Source of the DNA: an uncultured Acidimicrobiales bacterium
GTDB lineage: Bacteria; Actinomycetota; Acidimicrobiia; Acidimicrobiales; SZUA-35
DNA: 58,687 nt
NCBI GenBank assembly: GCA_937997485.1
Contig: CALKTH010000020.1
Location: 1-58,687 of the forward strand
Direction: 5' to 3'
Shown: one piece after another, positions 5,584 to 52,260 of the stretch
Numbering within the stretch: the stretch's first letter is position 1
How the letters are laid out: each line of letters starts with the position of its first letter
The notes under the pieces: model-generated
What the model saw: the letters and a program-made list of their open reading frames with translations, nothing else
Databases searched by the model: none
What the model was told of the DNA's origin: nothing
Made by a program: the position numbers and the translations under genes

Positions 5584-6015
5584 CTACGCAGCGATTGGTT
5601 CTGCTGCTGCGGTTTCGATGCCTTGGTCCGCTCGCACTTTGGCGGACAGGCGGTGGATCCGCTTGGTCAGCGGCTTGTGCAACGCGGACGCAAGCGGGTC
5701 TCGGTTCACGTACAGGTGGCCGTTCTCGATCCGCCAGTGCTTGGGCGAGCCTGACACGATGTTGTGTCCGGTCGCAGAGGCGACGGCGCAGCTTCCGCCG
5801 AACTGCGGGGCGTAGCTGGTTGGGTTGTTGATGAAGAGGTCTCGGTGCTCGGTGGTCGCGAACAACCACTCGGCGTCGGACCAGCGATAGCTGATATCGG
5901 GGGAGCCCTTCGTGGCTTCCCCGAGCGTGAAGTACGCCAGGGGGTCATACCCCTTGAGCGCGAGACCCTTGCGGTTCGTACGAACCTTGAATTTGTCCTT
6001 CGTGTTGTTGCTCAC
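5584..6015 (-). CDS. YHS-domain protein, copy 1
   Basis: A 143-residue protein whose first part is a YHS domain: GYDPLAYF near the N-terminus, YRWSDAEWLFATTEHRDLF, then YAPQFGGSCAVA. YHS domains are small and often metal-binding, and occur in copper transport and secreted or redox proteins. An SxKHWRIENGHLYVNRD segment follows. GTG at 6015 is chosen because AAGGAAGAA lies just upstream; an open frame runs back to 6171 but through the operator. It is a paralogue of the gene at 51860-52222. The palindrome at 6049-6064 suggests repressor control. No signal peptide is visible. Confidence 0.8.
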   Translation of the reverse strand: MSNNTKDKFKVRTNRKGLALKGYDPLAYFTLGEATKGSPDISYRWSDAEWLFATTEHRDLFINNPTSYAPQFGGSCAVASATGHNIVSGSPKHWRIENGHLYVNRDPLASALHKPLTKRIHRLSAKVRADQGIETAAAEPIAA

Positions 6016-6048
6016 TTCAATTCTTCCTTTGGTTCTGACCGTCCGTAA

Positions 6049-6064
6049 TACCGAACGTTCGGTA
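6049..6064. promoter_or_regulatory. TetR-type operator palindrome upstream of YHS gene 1
   Basis: TACCGAACGTTCGGTA is a perfect 16-base palindrome. On the minus strand it overlaps a -10-like TATTAC at 6050-6045, about 35 bases upstream of the YHS start. The same 16 bases recur at 47357-47372 before the NTF2/H-NOX pair. Placement over a core promoter implies repression. The repressor is not identified. Confidence 0.7.
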
Positions 6065-6214
6065 CAGAACCCTGCAACACTCTCACTCATTCCGTAGAAG
6101 CTCGTGCTGCGGGCCACCAAGGGCATCGCTCGTTGTGGGCGGAGCGCCGGCAGCGAGCGAGCCGGTTCCAAGTGTCAAGGTCGCGATGGCTCCCTCTATT
6201 GGGCTGAGGCAGGC

Positions 6215-8154: not shown

Positions 8155-8964
8155 CTACGAGGCGGAGATCGGCACTTGCACTTCGACGATCTGCTCTGGT
8201 GCACCGAGGTGAGGATCTGCGAGCAGCACTTCGCGGACGGGGCCTGAGATCTGCGCTGATTCGTGCTCGATCCACCGACCGATGGCGGCATTGGTGACGT
8301 GCAGATCGTCGGAGTCGGTCGAACGAATGGTGGACACCACCTCGACCTGGGGGAGGGTCTCCTCGACGAAGCCACCACGAGCGGCGGCTTCTTCAAGGCG
8401 AGGGTCGAGGGGCACGGCGAACTCCATCGGGAATCCTTCCTCGTCGTAGTCCGCCGTCCATCGGGCAATGCCATAGGGAGGCACTGGATCTTCGATGTGC
8501 TGGCTCATCTCCTTGACCATGCACGAGAGCGCGTCGAGCGCTTCGCCGAGATGCGCTGTCTGGTACGGCATTGTCCAGACCGTCATGGCCGGCACGGTCT
8601 TGCGAACGAGATCGATCGACGGCGCGCTGTCTTCGAGTTGCAAGATGCGCGAGTCGATTCCTCGCAGGCGTCGTTCGGCCGCTTCGAGTTCAGCCTTGGC
8701 CTGCGCCTGTTTGAGCGTGAGCATCGCACGGAGTTCAGAGGGCGACATGCTCGTCTCAAGCAAGTCACCGATCTCGGCCAGGCCGAATCCGAGATCGCGG
8801 AGGGCGACGATGCGGTTGATGTCGGCGAGCTGGGCTGCGCCGTAGAAGCGGTAGCCGGTCGACTGGTCGACATGGATGGGGTGGAGAAGACCGATCCGGT
8901 CGTAGTGACGCAGCACCCGTGTCGACACTCGGGCGAGTTGGGCGAAGTCGCCGATCATGAACAT
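8155..8964 (-). CDS. MerR-family regulator with GyrI-like effector domain
   Basis: A 269-residue BmrR-type regulator. Residues 1-70 are the MerR winged helix (MIGDFAQLARVSTRVLRHYDRIGLL, TGYRFYGAAQLADINRI). Residues 75-115 form the coiled-coil linker (LKQAQAKAELEAAERRLRGIDSRI). The C-terminal half resembles GyrI-like multidrug-binding domains, so the ligand is probably a small hydrophobic or cationic molecule; there is no cysteine cluster for metals. ATG at 8964 is 7 bases from the -10 of its own operator promoter. Five promoters with this operator form its likely regulon. MerR proteins activate by untwisting long-spacer promoters, which these are. Confidence 0.88.
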   Translation of the reverse strand: MFMIGDFAQLARVSTRVLRHYDRIGLLHPIHVDQSTGYRFYGAAQLADINRIVALRDLGFGLAEIGDLLETSMSPSELRAMLTLKQAQAKAELEAAERRLRGIDSRILQLEDSAPSIDLVRKTVPAMTVWTMPYQTAHLGEALDALSCMVKEMSQHIEDPVPPYGIARWTADYDEEGFPMEFAVPLDPRLEEAAARGGFVEETLPQVEVVSTIRSTDSDDLHVTNAAIGRWIEHESAQISGPVREVLLADPHLGAPEQIVEVQVPISAS

Positions 8965-8970
8965 GCCGCG

Positions 8971-9001
8971 ACCGTAGGGGTTGTCACAGTGTCAAGGTCA
9001 A
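8971..9001 (-). promoter_or_regulatory. MerR operator/promoter for merR itself
   Basis: Reading the minus strand: TTGACC (9001-8996), 19-base spacer with the dyad TTGACACTGTGACAA (one mismatch), then TACGGT (8976-8971). The merR ATG at 8964 begins 7 bases downstream, so the message should be leaderless. Confidence 0.8.
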
Positions 9002-9048: not shown

Positions 9049-9079
9049 TTGACCTTGACACCGTGTCAACCCCTAGCTT
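9049..9079 (+). promoter_or_regulatory. MerR operator/promoter for the selenoprotein operon
   Basis: TTGACC (9049-9054), a 19-base spacer, TAGCTT (9074-9079). The spacer carries TTGACACCGTGTCAA, a perfect dyad and the best copy of the five. A 19-base spacer is the hallmark of MerR-activated promoters. The ATG at 9086 lies at the expected transcription start. Confidence 0.85.
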
Positions 9080-9085
9080 GACCGC

Positions 9086-10228
9086 ATGACTCACCGAGCG
9101 GCGCCGTTCACTCCCGGAGAACCGAATGCCACACGGACGTCCTCTGGCTGGTGGGCAGACGACTACGGCATCGTCGGCCCGTACAAGCCAGGTCACGGCC
9201 CGAGAAGCGATCCGCGAGAAGCGTTTTCGACCGGCCCGTCCGTCGGCGAAGTGTTCCCGGACATCTCAGCGATGGACCAGACCGGCACCATGGTGGATGT
9301 ACACGAAGCGCGGTCGGGCGCACCAGCAGTGGTGGTGTTCTCGCGAGCGACAGTGTGGTGACCTCCCTGCCGCACGCAGCTGGTCGAGCTGCAATCACAC
9401 CTTCATCACTTCGAGTCTGCGGGCATCTCCGTGTTCGTCGTCTTCTACGAGACCGTCGAGCAACTCGGTTCGTTCTCTGACGAGTTCGACATCACGATTC
9501 CGCTGCTCTCCGATCCGGGAAGCACCATCATCACCGAGCTCGGGATTCTGAACACGACGCTGGATGAGTCCGACGCACCCTTCTACGGGATCCCGTTTCC
9601 CGGGAGCTACGTCATCGGTGCCGACGGAACGGTGATCGGAAAGTTCTTTGAACAGAATTCACTCGTTCGCACCCACCCCGACACGTTGCTTCGCGCTGCG
9701 CAGGGGCATGCGATCGACGACGTGCCCACGCCGTTACCCGAACCCGTCGAACATGTTGAAGCGCATGTTGGGCTCAGCGCCGACTCACTTCGAGCGATGC
9801 TGCTTACCGATCTGTTGATCGACGTGAGAGTGCCAACCGGTCAACACCTCTACGGCCCACCAGTTCCCGACGGTCTGACGATCACCTCGGTAGAGCTGGA
9901 CACCAACGAGTTCGTCGCTGCGCAGCCAGCGCACTTCCCGCCGACCCACGAGATGACGCTCAAAGGCACGGGTGAGACCTTGCACGTCTACGAGGGTGAC
10001 GTCCGAATCCGGATGCCGTTGCTCTACAACGGCGGCCGTGTGGCCCCGAACAACGATGGGGCGCGCACGGTCGACATCCACGGAACCATCCGGTGGCAGT
10101 CCTGTGACGATCACACGTGCCACATTCCGCGGACTGAACGCTTCGCGCTGACGATCAGTGTCGAGCCTCCGAACGTTCAGAAGCGGCTGCTCGATCTCAA
10201 CCCCAACAAACCGCCGACAACCGCATGA
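9086..10228 (+). CDS. Selenocysteine-containing AhpC/TSA-like redoxin fused to a DsbD-alpha-like domain
   Basis: One 380-residue protein if the TGA at 9359-9361 is read as selenocysteine 92. Frame and homology continue across the TGA: GPSVGEVFPDISAMDQTG and VVVFSRATVW before it, PPCRTQLVELQ, then SVFVVFYETVEQLGSF, PLLSDPGS and FYGIPFPGSYVI after it. That is the normal order of peroxiredoxin-like thioredoxin folds, which carry W-C-P-x-C there; here it is W-U-P-P-C (Sec92, Cys95). Residues about 255-370 resemble DsbD-alpha/cDsbD, with WQSCDDHTCHIP carrying the cysteine pair. A SECIS-like hairpin follows the TGA. It should reduce peroxides or electrophiles, perhaps taking electrons via the DsbD-like part. 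No signal peptide is evident. The DDN-like gene follows 25 bases later. Confidence 0.85.
9359..9392 (+). promoter_or_regulatory. Selenocysteine TGA codon and bacterial SECIS-like hairpin
   Basis: The in-frame TGA is at 9359-9361. GCAGCT (9376-9381) pairs perfectly with AGCTGC (9387-9392) around a GGTCG loop. The loop starts at base 21 after the TGA. In the known E. coli fdhF SECIS a GGUC loop starts at about base 19, so both sequence and distance agree with SelB recognition. Confidence 0.8.
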
Positions 10229-10253: not shown

Positions 10254-10706
10254 ATGAGCTTTGCCCAGAAACGTATGGATGTGATGGTGAAGATCGCCAA
10301 CGCTGGCCACAAGGGGCTGATCGCCGTCTCCGGTGGGCGCCTCGGCAAGTCCGCGGCCAACATGCCGGTGGTGAAGCTGACCACCATCGGTCGGCGGTCA
10401 GGCAAGCCGAGAACCGTCATGCTCACGACGCCCGTCAAGGGAGATGACCGTTACATCGTGGTGGCGTCCAAAGGCGGCGACGATCGTCACCCGGACTGGT
10501 ATCACAACTTGGTGGCCAATCCGGAGGTCACGCTCGAGCCGATCGGCGGAGACGGACCGCTCACGCTCATCGCTCGCACCGCATCGGCTGAGGAAAAGGC
10601 CGAGCTGTGGCCCAAGATCGCCGTCAGCGAGAAGGGCTACGCGGCGTACCAGAAGCGAACTGATCGCGACATTCCCGTCGTGATCTGTGAGCCACCCGGG
10701 TCTTGA
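10254..10706 (+). CDS. F420-dependent nitroreductase-like (DDN family) protein
   Basis: A 150-residue protein of the deazaflavin-dependent nitroreductase family. The core reads LTTIGRRSGKPRTVMLTT, YIVVASKGGDDRHPDWYHNLVANPEVTLE and ARTASAEEKAELW, the family's split-barrel signature with the G-R-x-S-G-K/R phosphate-binding turn. These enzymes use F420H2 to reduce quinones, nitro compounds or enones. ATG at 10254 follows a good GGAGGA site. It lies 25 bases behind the selenoprotein, so both should be on one MerR-driven transcript, which fits defence against quinone-type electrophiles. Confidence 0.88.
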   Translation: MSFAQKRMDVMVKIANAGHKGLIAVSGGRLGKSAANMPVVKLTTIGRRSGKPRTVMLTTPVKGDDRYIVVASKGGDDRHPDWYHNLVANPEVTLEPIGGDGPLTLIARTASAEEKAELWPKIAVSEKGYAAYQKRTDRDIPVVICEPPGS

Positions 10707-10769: not shown

Positions 10770-10800
10770 TTGACCTTGACACGATGTCAATCTCTAGCTT
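10770..10800 (+). promoter_or_regulatory. MerR operator/promoter for the DoxX-like gene
   Basis: TTGACC (10770-10775), 19-base spacer containing TTGACACGATGTCAA (one mismatch), TAGCTT (10795-10800). The ATG at 10807 starts 7 bases after the -10. Confidence 0.8.
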
Positions 10801-10806
10801 CGTGTG

Positions 10807-11247
10807 ATGATCAAGAACGTCGTCGCAAAGACTCTCCCGGTCCTGGCTGCAGCTGCGCTGCTCTTCCCGTCCTCCCGCAAGCTCTTCGATAGTGCCTGGC
10901 GCGAAGAACTCGGCTCGACGTACCAGCTGGCTGGCCAAGACTTCGGCGCGTTGTTCTTCGTCGCCGTCGGTCTCCTCGAGGCTGCGATGGCGGTTCTCAT
11001 CCTGTGGCCGAAGACGCGCGTTCCCGCGGGACTTGCCATGGCCGGCTTCTTCGTTGGTGCACTGGTGTTCAATCTTGGCTTGAGGGTGGACCACGACGTG
11101 CTGCCCGCGGACAGCCCGACCTTGAGCACACTGATCCCGCTCGACGTCTCCCACATCTTGCTCGGTTTGGCTGTCGCTTGGTTGTGGCGGAGCGTTGGGC
11201 AGCCCACTCACCTGTGGGTTGATCGCGCCGCCAGCTCAACGAGATAG
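10807..11247 (+). CDS. DoxX-like membrane protein
   Basis: A 146-residue protein with four hydrophobic stretches: about residues 5-20, 48-66, 72-92 and 108-128. The pattern SSRKLFDSAWREELG after helix 1 resembles the DoxX/DoxX-like family. It should reside in the cytoplasmic membrane. ATG at 10807 is preferred over GTG at 10804 because it coincides with the predicted transcription start of the MerR-type promoter. Within the regulon it may be the quinone- or thiol-linked membrane component, but that role is inferred from relatives. Confidence 0.72.
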   Translation: MIKNVVAKTLPVLAAAALLFPSSRKLFDSAWREELGSTYQLAGQDFGALFFVAVGLLEAAMAVLILWPKTRVPAGLAMAGFFVGALVFNLGLRVDHDVLPADSPTLSTLIPLDVSHILLGLAVAWLWRSVGQPTHLWVDRAASSTR

Positions 11248-11310: not shown

Positions 11311-11341
11311 TTGACCTTGACACGGTGGCAATCCGTACCTT
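11311..11341 (+). promoter_or_regulatory. MerR operator/promoter for the dehalogenase-like lipoprotein gene
   Basis: TTGACC (11311-11316), 19-base spacer with TTGACACGGTGGCAA (one mismatch), TACCTT (11336-11341). The ATG at 11349 is 8 bases on. The longer open frame from GTG 11325 would begin inside this operator, which argues against it. Confidence 0.8.
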
Positions 11342-11348
11342 CGGTCAG

Positions 11349-12515
11349 ATGACTAGAACACGGAAGACTCGCCTTGCTCCGTTGGCGCTCGCGACCGCTC
11401 TCGCCTTGGTGGCGGCTGCGTGCGCCGCCGACGACGACACCGATGCAACACCCACAAACGAGTCCGAAACCGAGGTCACTCAAGAGAGTGCAGAGGGGGA
11501 GGGCGCGGAGCCCACCACGACCGCGGAACCTGTCGACGAGGATGCTGCCATGGAGGAGGAGACGGCGACGACCGAGCCGAATGCGCCTGGTGTTGACATC
11601 GCCGCCTTCGAACAGCTCCCGTTGCCCGACTACGCAGCGGCGTTCGTTGACGAGGACTATGCGAGCTATCTCGTGGAAGTCGAGCCCGGCGTCAACGTCC
11701 ACGTCCTCGAAGTTGGATCGGGATACCCGGTCTACCTCCAGCACGGTGCCCCCACCTCCGGGTTCCTCTACCGCAAGATCGCGGAGCTCCTACCGCCGGA
11801 CCAGTTCCGGGTGATCATGCCAACGATGGTTGGGCTCGGGTTCTCGAGTCAGGCCGCAGCCGAAGAGCACACCCTGGACAACCACGCCCGGTGGATGAAT
11901 GAAACGCTGAATCAGCTGGGACTCGAGGAACTCATCTACGTAGGCCACGACTGGGGCGGCCCCGTCGGCCTGGGCGCGCTCGAGCGATCGCCCGAACTCC
12001 TTGCCGGTGCGGTCATCCTCAATACGGCCCTCGGTGCGCCGACCGGACCCGTCGAACTGACGCCCCAGCTCCAAGCCATCCTTGCGCCACTGCCACCCGA
12101 AGCCGAACTCATGCTCTCCGTTTCAGTTTTCGATCAGCTGCCAGCGATCCAGAACGACCCGGCGTCGATCTCGCCTGACGTCCTCGACCTCTACCGACGT
12201 CCCGTCGCTGAGAGCGACAATCCCATCGGGCCACTGTCCATTCTCCGCATGGCGGCGACCGGGCCAGAGCACCCGACCGCCGAAGTGCTCCGAGCGATCG
12301 ATGCGTACACGGCGCAACTCGACGTGCCTGCCGAGATCGTCTGGGGCATCAACGATCCCCTCCTCGGGAGTCGACTGGCCGAGATGACGGCCGTGTTCCC
12401 GAACGCTGGCGTCACCGAAACCGATTCGGGTCACTTCCTGCAAGAGGAAGGCGACGCTCCAGAAGCGATCGCCGCGGCGATTCAGCGAGTCCACGAGCAA
12501 GTCCAAGCCCAGTAA
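11349..12515 (+). CDS. Exported lipoprotein alpha/beta hydrolase, haloalkane-dehalogenase/epoxide-hydrolase-like
   Basis: A 388-residue protein. Residues 1-24 form a lipoprotein signal ending in a V-A-A-A-C lipobox, followed by an acidic Thr/Glu-rich tether to about residue 75. The catalytic domain has the oxyanion motif LQHGAPTSGFLYR and the nucleophile elbow YVGHDWGGPVG. H-D-W-G-G puts aspartate rather than serine at the nucleophile, as in haloalkane dehalogenases and epoxide hydrolases. IVWGINDPLLG and TDSGHFLQEE hold the acid and the catalytic histidine. It would detoxify alkyl halides or epoxides outside the membrane. MerR control is indicated by its promoter. Confidence 0.8.
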   Translation: MTRTRKTRLAPLALATALALVAAACAADDDTDATPTNESETEVTQESAEGEGAEPTTTAEPVDEDAAMEEETATTEPNAPGVDIAAFEQLPLPDYAAAFVDEDYASYLVEVEPGVNVHVLEVGSGYPVYLQHGAPTSGFLYRKIAELLPPDQFRVIMPTMVGLGFSSQAAAEEHTLDNHARWMNETLNQLGLEELIYVGHDWGGPVGLGALERSPELLAGAVILNTALGAPTGPVELTPQLQAILAPLPPEAELMLSVSVFDQLPAIQNDPASISPDVLDLYRRPVAESDNPIGPLSILRMAATGPEHPTAEVLRAIDAYTAQLDVPAEIVWGINDPLLGSRLAEMTAVFPNAGVTETDSGHFLQEEGDAPEAIAAAIQRVHEQVQAQ

Positions 12516-51859: not shown

Positions 51860-52222
51860 TCAGGAACTCTCGGCGAGCTTCCTGATACGGCCGTACATCA
51901 TTCCGAACATCGACGCGGCGAGCAGGTTCTTGTTGATGAAGAGCGTGTTGTCTTCGATTCGCCACCGCTTGGGGGAACCCTTGAGGTCACTGCCCATGAC
52001 TTGGGCGACGGCACAATGGCCACCGAACGCCGGTGCGTACTTCTCGGGGTCGTTGTCGAACAGCTCCCGGTGTTCCGCTGTGGAGAACAGCCACGTGGCG
52101 TCGTTCCACTGTCGACTGATGTTGGGGTTGCCCTTCGTGGGCTCGCCGACCGTGAAGTAGGCAACAGGGTCGTGCCCCTGCAACGCGTGTCCGGCCTTGT
52201 CGGTATAGACGGTCGTGCTCAT
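51860..52222 (-). CDS. YHS-domain protein, copy 2
   Basis: A 120-residue protein with the same plan as the gene at 5584-6015: GHDPVAYFTVGEPTKGNP, WNDATWLFSTAEHRELF, YAPAFGGHCAVAQ and SPKRWRIEDNTLFIN. The shared tail beyond the YHS core shows they are true paralogues. ATG 52222 lies 8 bases after the -10 of a MerR-type promoter, making it a distant member of that regulon; an open frame from 52246 would start within the operator. Confidence 0.82.
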   Translation of the reverse strand: MSTTVYTDKAGHALQGHDPVAYFTVGEPTKGNPNISRQWNDATWLFSTAEHRELFDNDPEKYAPAFGGHCAVAQVMGSDLKGSPKRWRIEDNTLFINKNLLAASMFGMMYGRIRKLAESS

Positions 52223-52229
52223 GCGCCTG

Positions 52230-52260
52230 AGGCTAAACATTGTCACCGTGTCAAGGTCAA
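52230..52260 (-). promoter_or_regulatory. MerR operator/promoter for YHS gene 2
   Basis: On the minus strand: TTGACC (52260-52255), 19-base spacer with TTGACACGGTGACAA (one mismatch), TAGCCT (52235-52230). It repeats the 8-11 kb promoters at a distance of about 43 kb. Leaderless start at 52222. Confidence 0.8.

Follow-up and report, generated by a model that had tools for sequence, protein, structure and literature searches.

A 2026 review (PMC13188914) lists 119 selenoprotein families and subfamilies, among them UxxC Prx-like, Redoxin and rhodanese/DsbD-like proteins. The Prx-like thiol:disulfide oxidoreductases and the 'Redoxin family protein' selenoproteins of that review (PF00578 / PF08534) share with the protein described here an AhpC/TSA or Redoxin domain and a selenocysteine (Sec) in a UxxC motif. 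Our protein adds to these a C-terminal DsbD-alpha domain with a C-x4-C pair, whereas the review's table gives them no DsbD domain. TsoB (NF045694) is likewise a selenoprotein and is described as rhodanese/DsbD fusion-like. However, it carries two Sec residues, as UxxxxU, and a rhodanese domain, in contrast to the one predicted Sec in a redoxin UxxC and the two cysteines in a DsbD domain found here; NF045694 did not appear in our NCBIfam scan and no rhodanese match was obtained. Table 1 of the review holds no entry that combines a redoxin with DsbD_N, and no Sec redoxin-DsbD_N fusion was found among the entries listed in the selenoprotein and DsbD-fusion literature that we searched.

The second part of the protein has its own known counterparts. 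The N-terminal domain of DsbD (nDsbD, or DsbD-alpha) has the same fold and a redox cysteine pair, and reduces partners of the Trx fold (PMC7347389). In E. coli nDsbD the two cysteines, C103 and C109, are separated by five residues (PMC7347389), whereas our protein has a spacing of four, lacks transmembrane and gamma domains, and shows no export signal by eye. Fusions of AhpC/TSA with DsbD_N also exist in a cysteine form (for example the protein P0046), with the same two domains and the same cysteine pair but with Cys or Ser at the Sec position. Among the five matches of our protein in NCBIfam release 20, none of which passed its cut-off, the best was the SelL-related redox protein NF040769, of which it is not a member (43 bits against a cut-off of 120).

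The gene studied here lies in a window of 58,687 nucleotides (the whole stretch of DNA analysed) from an uncultured Acidimicrobiales bacterium. In our judgement it probably encodes, with Sec at an in-frame UGA, a 380-residue UxxC enzyme of peroxiredoxin fold fused to a DsbD-alpha-like domain that is predicted to reduce it. Its features are as follows.

9086..10228, + strand: likely selenoprotein gene of 380 codons, with TGA read as residue 92; ATG at 9086, final TGA at 10226-10228
9242..9661, + strand: AhpC/TSA (Redoxin) domain of peroxiredoxin fold, from Pfam and fold searches
9359..9361, + strand: in-frame TGA, the predicted Sec92 of W-U-P-P-C; TGA here in all 39 inspected class members
9368..9370, + strand: Cys95 of UxxC, the predicted resolving residue; invariant in 13 aligned rows
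9376..9392, + strand: SECIS-like hairpin GCAGCU-GGUCG-AGCUGC, 14 bases past the TGA, from the 39-gene comparison and RNAalifold
9809..10150, + strand: DsbD_N (DsbD-alpha) domain, from Pfam PF11412, a structure model and Foldseek
10103..10120, + strand: C340-x4-C345, a cysteine pair of nDsbD type; invariant in the 13 rows and in 47 rows

The TGA at 9359-9361 is the single interruption of an otherwise open frame, in the context S-R-A-T-V-W-TGA-P-P-C-R. A run of 288 sense codons follows it, for which base composition gives a probability of about 3e-4, so that the frame beyond the TGA stays open for longer than expected by chance. The first-pass annotation of this DNA, made from the letters and their open reading frames, had placed a Sec codon exactly here, at residue 92 of a continuous frame and within W-TGA-P-P-C, and both its coordinates and its residue number are exact. 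It had also foreseen that automated annotation would split the gene, and this has indeed happened: the protein database entry P0002 is the same gene as a 265-residue fragment that starts after the TGA.

The genome carries most of the machinery needed for Sec insertion. On contig C129, selA adjoins selB (SelA 411 bits against a cut-off of 268, SelB 309 bits against 242), and a tRNA-Sec gene on contig C25 scores 63.7 bits (gathering score 47), with ARAGORN agreeing on tRNA-SeC (tca). A second likely selenoprotein of formate-dehydrogenase type is encoded in the same genome (L101, G000:C31:93573-94142), with an in-frame TGA in ...NRTUHAPS... and a score below the cut-off of that family, for which U-H-x-P is the reported pattern (PMC13188914). 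The absence of the whole machinery, named beforehand as the outcome that would undo the Sec reading, is thus not what we found: of the genes whose presence had been proposed as a check, selA, selB and that for tRNA-Sec are there, and selD alone gave no match above cut-off in the assembly (G000). Since this assembly is 92.8% complete and in 158 contigs, a gap is the simplest reading of the missing selD; the gene was found in all 15 relatives checked, each with one TGA. Co-occurrence of the two-domain gene with SelA was considered as evidence and set aside, as SelA is too common in the class (263 of 395 genomes). Among the 13 genomes with the two-domain gene, one that is 68% complete (G345) had no SelA match and another that is 77% complete (G323) had a weak one.

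Conservation of the codon was followed at two levels. In a search of 395 genomes of the class, 14 matches extended into the second domain; they come from 13 genomes, and 13 of the matches have the TGA, the other being partial and starting after the site. At the same W-U-P-x-C position the TGA stands in all 12 two-domain class genes that span it, that of the window included; the thirteenth is the second copy of one genome (G270). At the level of the order, 397 genomes were searched with a profile; 29 of them contained matches, 35 in all, and 30 loci were inspected (26 new and 4 repeats of earlier genes), every one with TGA at W-U-P-x-C. Counted as distinct genes and with that of the window, 39 of 39 inspected have TGA at the active-site residue; outside these, four further full-length matches were scored as having one TGA and two partial matches begin downstream of the site. 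Neither the 395 genomes of the class search nor the 397 of the order search yielded a Cys form of the two-domain protein. When contigs were searched with the pattern of our alignment A1 and a Cys codon was demanded, just one Cys-form locus, of Opitutaceae, and a weak locus of Myxococcota were recovered, and a plasmid search gave partial matches only, with none of 30 records spanning 80% of the query. Comparison of homologues at residue 92, which had been suggested as a way to check the reading, accordingly bears it out, with TGA in all 39 class genes and Cys in P0046 and 33 other listed relatives.

The alignment A1 consists of 13 rows, namely 12 of the 13 class Sec genes (the second copy of G270 was left out) and P0046. 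Residues U/C92, C95, C340 and C345 are invariant across the 12 Sec rows and the one Cys row, at an identity to the window protein of 28-35%. The remaining class matches are confined to the redoxin part; Cys or Thr occupies the site in some, and TGA in four of those retrieved. These four (L027, L030, L031 and L036) are Prx-like genes with the TGA at the matching UxxC position, and two of them, L030 and L031, have CAGCTGGTCAGC in common after it. At least two matches to the fusion gene were seen in each of the genomes G270, G431, G514, G528 and G652. One locus, L098, contains a further in-frame TGA, and the basal position of its hairpin is unpaired; it is possibly decaying or misassembled.

In the 39 genes, 99.6% of the cells of the hairpin stem are paired, against 2-39% in slid controls, and the RNAalifold consensus fold recovers the same hairpin unprompted. 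The basal pair is G-C in 25 genes, C-G in 12 and U-A in one, with a single C-C mismatch. It has 13 two-sided cells, a value that none of 500 shuffles reached; since 11 of the 12 C-G rows belong to one family code (f91, the other being of f1), these cells stand for few events and not for 13. In the first 13 genes the stem is paired throughout with wobble changes only; two-sided changes appeared once the other 26 genes were added. On the coding side, a silent change of Thr ACG to ACC is accompanied, gene for gene, by a change of the partner codon 11 from CAN to GAA. Across the 13 class genes the hairpin codons vary less than those of the remaining sequence, for which 12 of these genes were taken: GTC is used in 13 of 13 at the hairpin and in 51% elsewhere, and the first Leu is CTG in 12 of 13 against 35%. 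In the wider set the Val codon varies, being GTT or GTG in 3 of 39. Folded alone, the hairpin of the window has a stability that is unremarkable for its composition (z of -0.5 and -1.0), and an Rfam scan of the window gave no match above gathering scores. In the Cys homologue L050, by eye, the stretch is coded without the repeat of the hairpin. By comparison of the 39 genes, the locus has the putative SECIS stem-loop by which bacterial selenoproteins are recognised.

The presence of selA-selB and tRNA-Sec, a second likely selenoprotein, the TGA in 39 of 39 genes and a hairpin with a covarying basal pair make it likely that the UGA at 9359-9361 is decoded as selenocysteine, and the original proposal of a UxxC selenoprotein is in this way supported by machinery, codon position, hairpin and conservation alike. 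One may ask whether the TGA is instead a true stop in a dead gene, or a sequencing error. The window rests on a single assembly, and L098 shows that a second TGA can occur in a member, but the same codon stands in the window's gene and in 38 others from other loci and genomes, and both the frame and the active-site residues are conserved on the two sides of it; on these grounds we reject a pseudogene or a sequencing error, which we hold to be barely credible. It is also very improbable that a variant or near-cognate tRNA makes the UGA code for another residue, such as Cys or Trp. The missing selD would fit such decoding, yet the genome encodes a canonical tRNA-Sec, SelA and SelB, and the hairpin is both conserved and covarying.

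With the TGA read as Cys, Pfam finds one AhpC/TSA domain (PF00578) across it, at residues 53-183 (79 bits, cut-off 26), and DsbD_N (PF11412) at residues 242-355 (34.6 bits, cut-off 25). The AhpC/TSA-type domain together with the motif W-U-P-P-C is the combination that marks a Prx-like UxxC thiol:disulfide oxidoreductase. By fold, the nearest relatives of the redoxin domain are AhpE/BCP-type peroxiredoxins. However, the T-x-x-C signature of true peroxiredoxins is replaced by U-x-x-C, such that in alignments with single-domain Prx proteins (e.g. L028) U92 takes the place of the Thr of T-P-G-C and C95 that of its Cys, and the word peroxidase used in the earlier reading was therefore too strong. 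A model of residues 222-365 has a pLDDT of 95.8 and Foldseek matches to 1jpe, 3pfu and 1vrs; entries of the DsbD N-terminal domain occupy ranks 1-17 of that search and ScsB rank 18. The partner had been called cDsbD-like. That a DsbD domain is fused to the redoxin holds by Pfam and fold search, but it is the N-terminal alpha domain, and cDsbD is ruled out by the DsbD_N match and by ranks 1-17. A PDB sequence-profile search showed no nDsbD among the best 60 of 182 matches; nDsbD was recovered when the isolated domain was searched by fold. The model of both domains has a pTM of 0.74. The C340-x4-C345 pair was seen in 29 of 30 order-level loci and was not found in the matched stretch of L098. The transmembrane beta and Trx-like gamma domains of a whole DsbD are lacking, as Pfam gives only AhpC/TSA-Redoxin and DsbD_N in the 380 residues. 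No export signal was seen by eye in the window protein or in class relatives with readable N termini, so that the protein is probably cytosolic; the Cys homologue P0046 has, by eye, a signal-peptide-like N terminus.

The fusion had been regarded as uncommon, a view that the databases contradict. With the Cys form P0046 as query, the 7993 best candidates were scored and 3501 proteins were recovered, and the nDsbD cysteine pair is present in all of the best 120 of these 3501. At the Sec position the same 120 have Cys in 34 (P0046 included) and Ser in 5, and 81 start after the site, meaning that they are shorter than 300 residues and that no active-site motif was found. Of the 81, 74 have their first residue 7-10 positions beyond the active site, in most cases the V or M of QLVELE, and for the other 7 the distance is 24 residues; such clustering of starts just past the active site is as expected if a stop precedes. 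Among 54 database matches of the window protein with the nDsbD pair, a count that includes its own record, 53 begin beyond the active site and do not contain it, exact start positions being available for the P0046-relative set only. One of the 81 shortened records, P0162, is labelled Acidobacteriia. The records with Ser (P0083, P0084, P0086, P0089 and P0096, all W-S-P-x-C/S) lie near Cys forms in a tree of the family, from which P0089 is missing.

That tree was made by a quick method and drawn with a midpoint root from 113 of 180 rows: every second truncated row was used, and P0001, P0089, four rows with an unmatched motif and the rows without the nDsbD pair were left out. The clade with the window contains TGA-containing or truncated members only (38 rows), and in the other clade (75 rows) truncated members occur together with Cys and Ser forms. 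P0002 is the sole truncated record tied to a TGA; the other truncated records may likewise be Sec genes cut after the UGA.

Upstream of the Sec gene a MerR-family regulator is transcribed divergently, and the surrounding genes share a promoter-like motif.

8155..8964, - strand: divergent MerR-family regulator (PF13411, 60 bits)
8981..9001, - strand: MerR-type site before merR, from the motif scan
9049..9079, + strand: MerR-type promoter-like site of the Sec gene, with TTGACC, a 19-bp spacer with dyad and TAGCTT, then 6 nt to the ATG at 9086 (predicted leaderless)
10254..10706, + strand: gene of the F420H2-dependent quinone reductase family (PF04075, 122 bits), after a 25-base gap and predicted to be in the same operon
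10770..10790, + strand: MerR-type site before the DoxX-like gene, from the motif scan
10807..11247, + strand: DoxX-like membrane protein gene (DoxX_2 21.6 bits, below the 26.3 cut-off)
11311..11331, + strand: MerR-type site before the hydrolase gene, from the motif scan
11349..12515, + strand: alpha/beta hydrolase gene (PF00561, 85 bits), lipoprotein-like N terminus by eye
51860..52222, - strand: predicted fifth regulon gene, a small ORF that is YHS-like by eye, with no Pfam match
52240..52260, - strand: MerR-type site before ORF 51860-52222, from the motif scan

The 21-base dyad motif TTGACC-TTGACA-N3-TGTCAA has five sites at two mismatches or fewer in the 4.86 Mb genome, all of them in the window; a reversed-pattern control gave none, and window shuffles predict 0.03 sites at three mismatches. 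In all five, 19 bases separate TTGACC from a -10-like hexamer, as in promoters activated by MerR, and an ATG follows after 6-7 bases, as in leaderless messages. We predict that the five sites define a stress regulon of merR, the Sec gene with the F420H2 gene, the DoxX-like gene, the hydrolase gene and the YHS-like ORF. The last resembles another ORF of the window, 5584-6171 on the - strand (DPLAYF/DPVAYF, WLF.T.EHR.LF); both are YHS-like by eye, neither has a Pfam match, and a MerR-type site stands only before 51860-52222. The motif is absent from the other 50 loci scanned (partly overlapping, some with little upstream DNA), so the regulon setting is local, and rough picking of ORFs by eye showed no common MerR/F420 context among the neighbour genes of distant homologues.

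With this in mind, a catalytic cycle may be proposed. SelB with Sec-tRNA-Sec would bind the hairpin and insert Sec at residue 92. U92 would attack an oxidised substrate, a disulfide or a peroxide, and C95 would resolve the product as a selenenylsulfide. The C340/C345 pair would then reduce the U92-C95 bond within the same chain, as nDsbD does for DsbC and CcmG, and would be recharged by thioredoxin or by a route through the neighbouring F420H2-dependent reductase. The divergent MerR-family regulator would induce the Sec gene within a stress regulon. An in-chain relay from C340/C345 to U92/C95 is the likely mechanism; which way the electrons run, what donates them and what the enzyme acts on are predictions.

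It is unlikely, though less so than a misread codon, that the relay runs in reverse or does not exist, the Sec domain being fed by another donor while DsbD-alpha passes electrons to clients, or the enzyme being mainly a peroxidase with a structural second domain. E. coli nDsbD does act as the last donor to several clients (PMC7347389), but those clients include DsbC and CcmG, Trx-fold partners like the redoxin attached here (PMC7347389). A peroxidase would suit the AhpE/BCP-like fold, yet where its Thr-x-x-Cys signature should be there is U-x-x-C, and a purely structural second domain sits badly with a C340/C345 pair that is invariant in 13 rows. More serious, and a real possibility even if not the reading we favour, is that the family has already been reported, as the 'Redoxin family protein, UxxC' (or Prx-like 3) of selenoprotein reviews, in a description that omits the DsbD domain. 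Such a family is listed in Table 1 of PMC13188914 and in PMC9312934, but neither entry gives a DsbD_N domain, and for the entry Unknown_3 three conserved Cys are described, a CxxC among them, where the protein studied here has two, as C-x4-C. Sec UxxC redoxins are known, and the DsbD_N fusion is set apart from 'Redoxin family protein' (HEU0032618.1, MBA3499694.1) by the table's description only, which is the main threat to its novelty.

Returning to the Sec fusion with its own reductant, one may tentatively go further, with somewhat less than even confidence, and propose a large unrecognised family of Sec redoxins. According to this proposal DsbD-alpha, a domain familiar as a periplasmic one, was relocated to the cytosol to serve as a dedicated in-cis donor for selenocysteine, forming a selenium relay in one chain, and in at least two clades Sec forms make up most of the database members but have escaped annotation, as gene calls start just after the UGA. 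The 53 of 54 and 81 of 120 shortened records point to systematic misannotation, and if these are Sec genes, as is the case for P0002, databases greatly understate the size of the family. With the fusion the Sec redoxins gain a two-domain architecture, and the proposal of an in-cis DsbD-alpha donor for a selenocysteine active site can be put to the test. The MerR/F420H2 setting of the gene offers a concrete inducible system in which the substrate of the enzyme may be sought.
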